Source: Planctomycetota bacterium
GTDB lineage: Bacteria > Planctomycetota > Planctomycetia > Gemmatales > Gemmataceae
Assembly (NCBI GenBank): GCA_016872595.1
Contig: VGZJ01000019.1
Span: 1 to 39,161, forward strand
Direction of reading: 5' to 3'
DNA: 39,161 nt
Below are positions 25,449 through 28,823 of this stretch, in pieces. Numbering within the stretch: the stretch's first letter is position 1; the number at the start of each line of letters is the position of its first letter. The translations under genes and the position numbers were made by a program. The notes under the pieces were generated by a model, which saw only the letters and a list, made by a program, of their open reading frames with translations, was not told where the DNA came from and did no database searches.

Positions 25449-28400
25449 CTACGGCTCCTTCTCTTTCGGGAGGCCGAAGCCCGGCGGGAGGCGCAGCAGG
25501 TCCGGGTCCATCAGGAACAAGTGCCGGCGACCGGGCAGGTCGGCGGCGTCCACGAACACCTTGTCACGAAGGCGCAGAGCATCGACCAGTGCTTGGTAGG
25601 TGAGCCGCGTATCGAGCAGCGCGCGGCGGGCGGCCAGCGCGGTCGCGCGCCGCGCCGCGAGGTCAGCGTCCACCGCGGCGGGGGCCTCGCCGGCCCCGAC
25701 GCGCTTGGCGCGCTCCGCGGACAGCGCCGCCTCCTCCGCGGCCGTCAGTTTGGTGCGCGCGTCGCGCCACGCGAGGAACGCATCGCGGTCGGCGCGAGCC
25801 GCTTCGAGCTTGGCATGGGCGTCTGCCGCGGCGCGCTTGCGCGCGCTGTCGGCCTCTTGCTCTGCGCGTCGGCGCACCCGAAGCGCGTCGGCGAGGGCCT
25901 CGTTCACCGCCCGGTCGCGCTCCTGAATGGCCTTCGCGACTGTATGGTAGGAGTTCACCACTTCCGGCGGCGGGTGCAGGTCGTACAGGGTGAACCCTTC
26001 GAGCGCGACGCCCAACCCGTCCGGGGCGGCCTCGGTCACGCGACGCGCGAGGCGCTCCAGCGCGACGCGCTCGATCTCGGCGCGGCGGTGCGTCAGCAGT
26101 TCGATGAACTTATGGCCGGCGACCAACTCGCGCAACACGGACTCGGTCGCGGAACGGATCACGAACTCCGGGTCGGTCGCGCCGAACAGGAACTTGCGCG
26201 GGTCGCTAACGCGGTACCGCGCGATCGCGCGCAGCTCGACGAGGCTGTCGTCGCCGGTAATCATCACGGCCTCGTCCGTGACCGGGCCGACGCCGTCGCC
26301 GTGGCTCCCGGCCCACGTGTTCGCGCCCGGCCCCTTCTGCGCGCCGGGCACGACGCGGAACCCGATCTCGATCGTGCGCACTTCGCCCGGGCGCACGCGC
26401 GTTACGGTCTCGACCGGCCACGGCCAGCGCAGGTGCAACCCCGGCGGCAGGTCCGCGGTCACGTCGCCGAACCGCCGCACCACGCCCACTTCGCCGGCCT
26501 CGATCTGGGCGACAGCGGTGGCGAGCCACGCGGCCAGCGCGACAGACGCGAGTAGGCCGCCGACGGCCTTCCAGCGGTGCGCGAGGCCGTGCAAGAGACC
26601 GTCGAACGAGAGCCGGCCGAGCCACCCTTCCACGGCCTTCGACGCGCCGCGCACGCGCGCCAGCGCCCGGCTTTCCGTACGGTCGAACGCGAGCAACCGC
26701 ATCGAGTTCAACAGCACCGCGAGGGAGCCGAGTTGGTGGTAGATGACGCCCGCGAGCGGGGCCGACTCGTACCAGTCCGGCGACGACGCGAACAGCGGCC
26801 ACAGCCAGCCCGTGAGGACGATGCCGAGCAGGTTCACCCCGAACGCGAACACGAGGATGTTCTGGCGGATGATGCGAACCGTTTCGCGCGACAAACGCAC
26901 CAACAGCGGGAGCGGCTTGAGCGGTTCGCCCATCATGACGATGTCGCCGGCTTCCGCGGCCACGTCGGTGCCGCGACCGCCGCCGATGGCGATGCCAACG
27001 CCTGCCCGCGCGAGCGCGGGCGCGTCGTTGATGCCGTCGCCGACGAAGGCGACGGAGGAACCTAACCCCCCGACCCCCTTCCCTAAGAGGGAAGGGGGGG
27101 TAGGAGAGGTAGCTTCTTCTCCTACCCCCCCTTCCCTCTTAGGGAAGGGGGTCGGGGGGTTAGGTTCTTGCCCCGCCACCCATTCGGCTTTCTGCGCCGG
27201 CAGCAGTTCGGCGTGAACTTCCGTTACGGGCAGTTGCTCCGCAACCGCGCGCGCCACCGCGGCGCGGTCGCCGGTGAGTAGCGCGACGGGCGCGATGCCG
27301 AGCGCGCGGAGGTCGGCCAGCACTTGCGCCGCTTCGGGGCGCAAGGTGTCGCGCGCGCCGAGGACCCCGAGAACCACGCCGTCGCGGGCGACCACGAGCG
27401 AGGTGCGCACCACGAGGAGCGAGGTTTGCCCTGCGGCGTCCAGTCGGTCGAGCGCTGCGAGCGCGTCGGCCGGGAGCGCGACGCCCTGCTCTTCCACCAG
27501 CCGGCGCGTGCCGACGATGAGTGCAGTGCCGCCGAAAGAGGCGGTTACGCCCGCGCCGGGGTGCGCGCGGAATGCATCGACCGCGGGCACGCTCAGCCCG
27601 CGCGCTGCCGCCGCCCCGACGATGAGCCGGGCCAGCGGGTGTTCGCTCCGCTGCTCCGCGGTCGCGGCAGCTGTGAGGAGCTGCTCCGCGGACGCGCCGC
27701 CGAGCGGGATCACGTCGCCCAGTTCGAGCTTGCCCTCGGTCAGCGTGCCGGTTTTGTCGAACGCGAACGCGGTCACGCCGGCGAGCCGTTCGAGCGCCGA
27801 GCCGCCCTTGATGAGCACGCCCGTACCGGCGAGCCGGCCGAGCGCCGCGATGACCGCGGCCGGGGTCGCGAGGATCAGCGCGCACGGGCACGCCACCACC
27901 AGCACCGCGAGCGCGGGGTACGCGGCTACGCGCGCCGCGGCCCGCGCGCCCGGCTTCGGAAACCCCTGCGGCGGCGTCCCATAGTACTGGTAGGCGAAGT
28001 TGCTCGCGAACGTGGCGAGCGCGAGTACCACTACGAGCGGAAGGAAGTATCGCGCAAGCCGGTCGGCGTAGCGCTCCAGCGGGGCTTTGTCCTTGAGCGC
28101 CTGCGCGGTCAGCGCGATCACCTGCCCGGCGACGGTGTCCTTCGCGACCTTCTGCGCCTCGACCGTGAGCGCGCCGTGTTGCACGATGCTCCCGGCCAGC
28201 ACCGCGTCGCCCGGCCCCTTATCGACCGGAAGGCTCTCGCCGGTGATGGCGCTGGCGTCGACCGCAGAGCGCCCGTCGGTCACGACACCGTCAACGGGTA
28301 CGCGCCCGCCGGGCTTCGCCACGACCTTGTCGCCGACAATCAGGTCCGCGGTGTAGGTGCGTACCTCCGCGCCGTCGCGCAGCACCCAGCACCTTTGTGG

Positions 28401-28823
28401 GAACAGTTCCGCGAGTTTACCTAGTGCGTTCTGCGTGCGCGCGAACGTGAGCGCTTCGAGGCACTCGCCGACCAACCCGATGAACACGACCTCGGCCGCG
28501 ACCACGGGTTCTTTCAGCACGATGGCGGCGAGGCAAGCGATGGCGAGCGCGAGGTCGGAGCCGACGCGCCCTTCGAAGAGCGCTTCGAGCGACGTGTACA
28601 GGACACGCGCGCCCCCAATGACGGCGGCGAAGAGGGCGTAGCGGAACCCAGACGCATCGCGCGCCCACGAGTACGTTTCGACGCCCTGCCCCTTGAGCCA
28701 CCCCGCGACCACCGGCCACAGGTCCGCGCCGAGCAGCGCCCCGACGACGGCCGTGAGCAGGTAGAGCGCGAGCGGCGACTCCGAGCGAAACGGGTCGTCA
28801 ACGGTGCTGATCTCGCGATGCAT
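25449..28823 (-). CDS. P1B-type metal ATPase fused to an HflK-like SPFH domain
   Basis: A single 1124-residue polypeptide. Residues ~15-715 are a heavy-metal P-type ATPase without an N-terminal metal-binding domain: actuator TGES at 194-197, intramembrane CPC at 312-314, phosphorylation site DKTGT at 356-360, SEHP at 393-396, GDGINDAP at 595-602, and last helices ending YHQLGSLAVLLNSMRLL. After a ~40-residue linker comes one more membrane segment (about 752-772), then an SPFH domain of HflK type: EAGEVGVVRRFGDVTADLPP, WPWPVETVTRV, ITGDDSLVELRAIARYRVSDP, and a coiled coil (about 965-1060). Residues ~552-590 are encoded by a palindromic element. The metal is not evident: CPC suggests a soft metal, but the last helix lacks the usual Cu or Zn residues. 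The fusion suggests the pump is tied to a membrane microdomain or to FtsH-type proteolysis. Confidence 0.9.
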   Translation of the reverse strand: MHREISTVDDPFRSESPLALYLLTAVVGALLGADLWPVVAGWLKGQGVETYSWARDASGFRYALFAAVIGGARVLYTSLEALFEGRVGSDLALAIACLAAIVLKEPVVAAEVVFIGLVGECLEALTFARTQNALGKLAELFPQRCWVLRDGAEVRTYTADLIVGDKVVAKPGGRVPVDGVVTDGRSAVDASAITGESLPVDKGPGDAVLAGSIVQHGALTVEAQKVAKDTVAGQVIALTAQALKDKAPLERYADRLARYFLPLVVVLALATFASNFAYQYYGTPPQGFPKPGARAAARVAAYPALAVLVVACPCALILATPAAVIAALGRLAGTGVLIKGGSALERLAGVTAFAFDKTGTLTEGKLELGDVIPLGGASAEQLLTAAATAEQRSEHPLARLIVGAAAARGLSVPAVDAFRAHPGAGVTASFGGTALIVGTRRLVEEQGVALPADALAALDRLDAAGQTSLLVVRTSLVVARDGVVLGVLGARDTLRPEAAQVLADLRALGIAPVALLTGDRAAVARAVAEQLPVTEVHAELLPAQKAEWVAGQEPNPPTPFPKREGGVGEEATSPTPPSLLGKGVGGLGSSVAFVGDGINDAPALARAGVGIAIGGGRGTDVAAEAGDIVMMGEPLKPLPLLVRLSRETVRIIRQNILVFAFGVNLLGIVLTGWLWPLFASSPDWYESAPLAGVIYHQLGSLAVLLNSMRLLAFDRTESRALARVRGASKAVEGWLGRLSFDGLLHGLAHRWKAVGGLLASVALAAWLATAVAQIEAGEVGVVRRFGDVTADLPPGLHLRWPWPVETVTRVRPGEVRTIEIGFRVVPGAQKGPGANTWAGSHGDGVGPVTDEAVMITGDDSLVELRAIARYRVSDPRKFLFGATDPEFVIRSATESVLRELVAGHKFIELLTHRRAEIERVALERLARRVTEAAPDGLGVALEGFTLYDLHPPPEVVNSYHTVAKAIQERDRAVNEALADALRVRRRAEQEADSARKRAAADAHAKLEAARADRDAFLAWRDARTKLTAAEEAALSAERAKRVGAGEAPAAVDADLAARRATALAARRALLDTRLTYQALVDALRLRDKVFVDAADLPGRRHLFLMDPDLLRLPPGFGLPKEKEP
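27058..27167. repeat. 110-bp perfect palindromic element inside the P-type ATPase gene
   Basis: Two 49-base arms (27058-27106 and 27119-27167) are exact reverse complements around a 12-base loop. They contain AACCTAACCCCCCGACCCCC and the inner hairpin TTCCCTAAGAGGGAA. On the minus strand the element is read as NPPTPFPKREGGVG and PPSLLGKGVGGLG. Confidence 0.92.

Follow-up and report, generated by a model that had tools for sequence, protein, structure and literature searches.

A conserved fusion of a P1B-type metal ATPase with an HflK-type SPFH domain in planctomycetes of the order Gemmatales

A single gene of a planctomycete under the family Gemmataceae encodes a P1B-type metal ATPase and an HflK-type SPFH domain in one polypeptide. 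The gene is located on the minus strand at positions 25449-28823 of the window, which is the whole stretch of 39,161 nucleotides that was analysed (contig VGZJ01000019.1 of assembly GCA_016872595.1). Comparison with related genomes indicates that the joint between both halves is real, old, and conserved. The reading that we favour, with moderate confidence, is that the protein is a transition-metal pump built into an HflK/C-type periplasmic scaffold that also has two dedicated partner proteins. The fusion is a new combination of known parts and is functionally suggestive. No description of a P-type ATPase or another metal transporter fused to an SPFH or HflK protein was found in the open literature, and an entry for the architecture may exist in domain databases. 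The initial annotation knew of no described system of this kind. This needs amending: an unfused counterpart has been described, which consists of HmtA and three SPFH proteins (PMC4542158, PMC11761036).

The open frame of 1124 codons that the initial annotation had reported was confirmed from ATG to stop, and the opposite (plus) strand of 25449-28823 is interrupted by stops. The ATPase half (residues 1-711, positions 26691-28823, minus strand) is a complete P1B ATPase that is matched by Pfam and NCBIfam models and by Foldseek, and no heavy-metal-associated (HMA) domain was matched in it. The Pfam matches in the protein are E1-E2_ATPase (6.1e-50), Hydrolase (4e-23), and Band_7 (4.2e-23), all above the curated cut-offs, and the NCBIfam P1B model TIGR01525 scores 508.3 bits against a cut-off of 346.25. 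All of the ATPase motifs that had been listed are present, namely TGES (residues 194-197), CPC (312-314), DKTGT (356-360), SEHP (393-396), and GDGINDAP (595-602). The core residues of these five motifs are invariant or nearly invariant in an alignment of 15 relatives. The CPC metal-site motif of TM6 (27882-27890), the DKTGT phosphorylation motif (27744-27758), and the GDGxNDAPAL form of the GDGINDAP hinge motif (27018-27041), all on the minus strand, are invariant among those relatives.

The further membrane helix that had been noticed after the ATPase is the ninth and lies between both halves. It spans residues 740-768 (26520-26606, minus strand) in the structure model, with a hydropathy peak at residues 754-772. 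The SPFH/Band_7 domain follows at residues 773-979 (25887-26507, minus strand) and is identified by Pfam and by its likeness to HflK (7vhq). The Band_7 match spans profile positions 2-175 of 176 above the cut-off, so the SPFH part is complete and not partial. According to Pfam and the structure model, this complete domain sits after a membrane helix, which is the arrangement expected of an HflK-type protein. The NCBIfam hflK model TIGR01933 matches at 2.3e-33, but the score of 115.8 bits does not reach the equivalog cut-off of 159.4. Long C-terminal helices at residues 953-1085 (25569-25967, minus strand) are presumed to form the coiled coil that had been proposed. The neighbouring minus-strand gene (23674-25311 of the window) encodes an FHA-GAF-HD domain protein.

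The AlphaFold2 model of the whole protein, which was built from 15 aligned sequences and has a mean pLDDT of 72.7, shows the ATPase helices, the separate membrane helix, the beta/alpha domain of SPFH, and the long helices. The best Foldseek match of this model is 4umw, a zinc P1B ATPase (9.6e-45), and the cadmium ATPase 7qbz is matched at 1.0e-42. Among the matches listed, zinc, copper, and cadmium P1B ATPases are the nearest folds to the whole model; the best 50 matches listed are P-type ATPases only and include no SPFH fold. By sequence, the solved structure closest to the SPFH half is HflK of E. coli (7vhq, 3.1e-15), and 7vhp is also matched. A model of the SPFH half that was folded alone without an alignment reached a pLDDT of only 51.7 and was set aside.

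A detail that the initial annotation had missed is an in-frame copy of a dispersed palindromic repeat within the P domain. The copy occupies residues about 549-592 (27048-27179, minus strand) in the loop before GDGIND and translates as NPPTPFPKREGG...SLLGKGVGGLG. It forms a near-perfect hairpin (z-score -14.9), and many further copies of the repeat are found elsewhere in the genome on both strands. Residues 554-588 within the repeat are modelled as a low-confidence coil with pLDDT under 50. The loop before GDGIND varies in length among the 15 aligned relatives or has no insert. In genome G015 (contig C125, record L050, 1503-4782), the fusion gene consists of two overlapping frames that are split at the same P-domain loop, either by a frameshift or by an assembly error.

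Homologs of the fusion gene were searched in 59 related genomes, and the gene or its remains were found in 41 of the 44 genomes under Gemmatales. A single frame of 1000 aa or more encodes the fusion in 36 of those 44 genomes, which come from many assemblies including some single-contig ones. The gene is apparently truncated at contig ends in G004, G020, and G035, is frameshifted in G015 (68% complete), and has a frame of only 597 aa in G038. The fusion was absent from G007, G027, and G028 (82%, 97%, and 100% complete, respectively) in the search of the 44 Gemmatales genomes. Outside Gemmatales the fusion is patchy and is present in G044, G048, G267, G213, and record L052. Among the matches listed for 294 genomes of the phylum, both halves are matched only in the source genome, G267, and G213. 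None of 398 sampled Pseudomonadota genomes has a match to both halves, and none of the 5000 best plasmid records covers 80% of the fusion query. A scan of genome contigs, with patterns that were taken from one protein and reach close relatives only, gave full-length matches in planctomycete records only.

This distribution bears on whether the fusion is an artefact, that is, two genes joined by a lost stop codon, an assembly error, or pseudogene formation. The repeat insertion in the source copy and the frameshift at the same loop in the incomplete genome G015 would fit such an origin. The single long frames in 36 of 44 Gemmatales genomes across many assemblies and the motifs that are kept in both halves speak against it, and we regard an artefact as extremely improbable. 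An assembly error or a lost stop in the source copy is ruled out because the relatives carry the fusion too. The two findings that the initial annotation had named as grounds for refutation, separate genes in close relatives and an SPFH part that is partial by profile search, were both contradicted.

The SPFH halves of 22 fusions form one clade (support 95/90), and the ATPase halves of the same number of fusions also form one clade (support 96/89). A single fusion event would be the simplest reading because each half forms one clade in these larger trees. The fusions were not recovered as one group in the smaller sets that were used for topology tests, where G213 is loose in both trees and L110 is misplaced in the SPFH tree. 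A constraint that unites the ATPase halves of the fusions was not rejected in the smaller set (p-AU 0.373).

The metal carried by the pump was approached from TM8 and from family models. Alignment of relatives and paralogues shows a His-Gln pair in TM8 (residues 696-697, 26733-26738, minus strand) as part of the signature HQxxSxxVLxNxxRLL. The paralogues compared have other patterns, MxxSS for Cu and ADTG/ADMG for Zn. The DxG of the cadmium/zinc family is absent from TM8, where HQ replaces D, and the YN and MxxSS of TM7-TM8 that mark copper P1B-1 pumps are also absent, with TM8 reading HQxxS. The window protein passes the cadmium-family model TIGR01512 (381.4 bits against 313.5), and four relatives pass it by a wide margin (408-481 bits). 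The copper model TIGR01511 gives 352.7 bits against 397 for the window protein, which fails, and 383.9 and 371.7 bits for two relatives that carry no insert; another two, which are deeper, score just above the cut-off. The cargo is probably a divalent transition metal because the fusions pass the cadmium-family model and the window protein fails the copper model. Zinc would be a guess that is strengthened solely by the parallel with HmtA. P1B ATPases generally export metal. HmtA has been reported as an importer (PMC4542158).

At 14 loci (L051, L052, L101, L102, L103, L105, L106, L107, L109, L110, L111, L112, L118, and L119), an HflC-like gene and then an HflK-like gene come directly after the fusion gene on its strand, and most of them abut or overlap. 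L044 has the fusion and the HflC-like gene. This operon arrangement is frequent in Gemmataceae outside the genus of the source genome, and likewise in the second family of Gemmatales and in the lineages where the fusion is patchy. In G048 (L102, 934-2522), genes for an unknown 187-aa protein and an S49 family peptidase follow the three genes on the same strand. The initial annotation had found no hflC or ftsH gene in the window, and the part of the window that was examined showed no homologue of either. A search elsewhere in the source genome, as had been advised, identified an HflC-like/HflK-like pair on contig C107, separate from the fusion contig. The pair scores below the cut-offs of the hflC and hflK models that it matches, and it nests within the clades of operonic partners in the trees. 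The closed genomes of the genus also have the pair distant from the fusion gene, for example at 8.08 and 2.34 Mb, respectively, in G008. The pair is retained though unlinked in G008, G012, and G013, and G019 keeps all three genes, each apart.

The fusion and the pair tend to occur together. The counts over the 59 genomes are 41/2/2/14, where 41 genomes have both, 14 have neither, and 55 agree (Fisher p 1e-9, uncorrected for descent and with presence thresholds that we chose from the search tables). Co-occurrence within Gemmatales alone has a p of 0.018. Neither the fusion nor the pair was found in G027 and G028, the Gemmataceae genomes that are 97 and 100% complete. No conserved element was found upstream of the fusion gene in eight close relatives, and no palindrome was found near its start. 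One FUR-family regulator was found in the source genome.

The unfused HmtA cluster of zinc starvation is the closest known counterpart of the fusion. It has been reported that the zinc-starvation set of Pseudomonas aeruginosa comprises PA2435 (HmtA, a P-type ATPase importer), PA2437, PA2438 (HflC family), and PA2439 (HflK family) (PMC4542158), and that several of the PA2435 and PA2437-2439 proteins are more abundant under zinc depletion (PMC11761036). A separate survey describes a three-gene SPFH operon, PaFlo5-7, in a text where the word ATPase is absent (PMC13086221); we infer that PaFlo5-7 are the PA2437-2439 genes. Three SPFH genes and a P1B ATPase gene in the order K1-HflC-K2-ATPase were identified at 12 Pseudomonadota loci. 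In 11 of these 12 clusters, all but L120, HflC has a His-rich stretch, or tail, close to its start, with 8 to 13 His per 20 residues. Among 16 planctomycete HflC sequences only that of G048 is His-rich (13 His in 20), and the copy of the source genome is without the tail. The first HflK (K1) of these clusters has an N-terminal extension of about 200-300 residues that is hydrophobic in places (L120 5118-6824, L121 4862-6757, and L150-L158), and no Pfam match was found in the two extensions that were checked.

Both the HmtA-type cluster and the planctomycete set consist of a P1B ATPase and three SPFH proteins of HflC and HflK types, one of which is fused in the planctomycete relatives, and the ATPases of both have a histidine in TM8. 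This likeness of the components is striking; for PA2435 itself it is one of gene content as given in the papers. The ATPase of the HmtA-type cluster is separate and encoded by the last gene, whereas the planctomycete ATPase and SPFH form one protein that is encoded first in the operon; the source genome also differs by having its set scattered. Trees constrained to unite the fusion and HmtA-type groups are neither favoured nor rejected (p-AU 0.291 for ATPase and 0.263 for SPFH).

The comparison was extended to other known systems. HflK/HflC-FtsH of E. coli shares with the fusion a membrane helix before SPFH and an HflC-type partner, and HflK is the nearest solved relative. The fusion differs in bearing an eight-helix pump in front, compared to the short N-terminus of E. 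coli HflK, and in belonging to a set of two HflK-type chains and HflC. ZntA/CadA and CopA have the same fold and catalytic motifs as the ATPase half. However, they are without an SPFH domain, and the fusion clade lies outside the sampled Cu and Zn groups with its own TM8 signature. Flotillin-associated rhodopsin is similar in that a rhodopsin, a member of a light-driven pump family, is encoded and co-transcribed with an SPFH protein (PMC10308929), but it involves two genes, an SPFH protein of the flotillin type, and no ATPase.

A second fusion was identified on the Aquibium oceanicum plasmid NZ_CP018172.1 (L123, 5364-6911), where a CDF domain (Cation_efflux, 4.5e-25) is joined to SPFH (2.9e-20). 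This fusion is similar to the planctomycete one in joining a metal transporter to an HflK-type SPFH domain with hflC and hflK genes behind it, and a heavy-metal P-type ATPase is encoded further on. It differs in the transporter family. The Aquibium fusion gene is the first of a comparable set, so the joining of a metal transporter to an HflK-type domain has happened more than once. No plasmid in the collection other than its own record covers 80% of this fusion, and no description of it was found in the open literature. A Vibrio alginolyticus plasmid (L125, 2803-6186) has hflK-hflC directly before the Na+/H+ antiporter gene nhaA, which is another neighbourhood of SPFH and ion transporter genes.

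In the reading that we favour, a P1B-type transition-metal ATPase would be covalently part of an HflK-type scaffold subunit. P1B ATPases have eight membrane helices with both termini in the cytoplasm. The catalytic domains of the pump would be on the cytoplasmic side, and the SPFH domain would be periplasmic because the ninth helix that follows the eight ATPase helices would take it across, as in HflK. HflK/C has been located in the periplasm (PMC2636767). The fusion SPFH, the HflC-like protein, and the second HflK-like protein may assemble into an HflK/C-type ring or cage; the simplest model would be a ring of three chains, one of which carries the pump, with FtsH inside or not. The pumps would then sit in a membrane patch that the cage encloses, and the metal, most likely a divalent one such as zinc, would be released or taken up at its periplasmic space. 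We infer the topology, the assembly into one complex, and the divalent cargo. The initial annotation had proposed that the covalent link would put a pump into such a ring, and these findings support a pump as part of an HflK/C-type subunit. Its picture is amended by the existence of an HflC-like partner, whose gene directly follows the fusion gene in many relatives and is detached from it in the source genome.

A different role for the SPFH half would be to act as an HflK-like handle through which the pump comes under FtsH, where proteolysis sets the abundance or quality of the pump and both partners form the HflK/C cage around FtsH. HflK/C is known as a cage of FtsH, and mgtA, a P-type ATPase gene, has been named among FtsH substrates (PMC13220708). 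The source genome encodes FtsH-family peptidases on contigs C301 and C270, with a shorter match on C78, and the nearest solved structure to the SPFH half is that of HflK. However, no specific link to FtsH was found, no ftsH was noticed adjoining any fusion operon examined, both the fusion and the second HflK score below the equivalog cut-off of the hflK model, and the fusion SPFH forms its own clade apart from the canonical HflK sequences used. We consider such protease control rather unlikely, though FtsH binding itself may occur. It is quite improbable that the SPFH domain only oligomerises the pump or sites it in a membrane domain, with neither specific partners nor any regulation. In favour of such passive anchoring, the literature describes SPFH proteins as general organisers of membranes, and the partner genes are unlinked in the genus. 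Against it, an operon with two specific partners is found in many families, and the fusion and the pair are jointly absent in G027 and G028. The scaffold with a built-in pump is itself weakened by several findings. Common descent with the HmtA-type cluster is neither favoured nor rejected by the trees, most planctomycete HflC partners including that of the source genome have no His-rich tail, near relatives share no conserved upstream element, and the partners are unlinked in the genus.

It is unclear what most bacterial SPFH proteins do, and here the covalent link directly identifies a pump as the client. The fusion makes the control of a transporter by an HflK/C-type scaffold testable in one protein. 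It also provides a physical reason to count as transporter parts the three SPFH genes beside HmtA, which were noted without explanation in the zinc papers (PMC4542158, PMC11761036). We tentatively raise the possibility that a distinct class of HflK/C-type cages serves metal transporters, beyond FtsH, by enclosing pumps in a patch of membrane that has a periplasmic space of its own. If this is true, the same principle would be realised separately in the planctomycete fusion, in the HmtA cluster, and in the CDF-HflK fusion.
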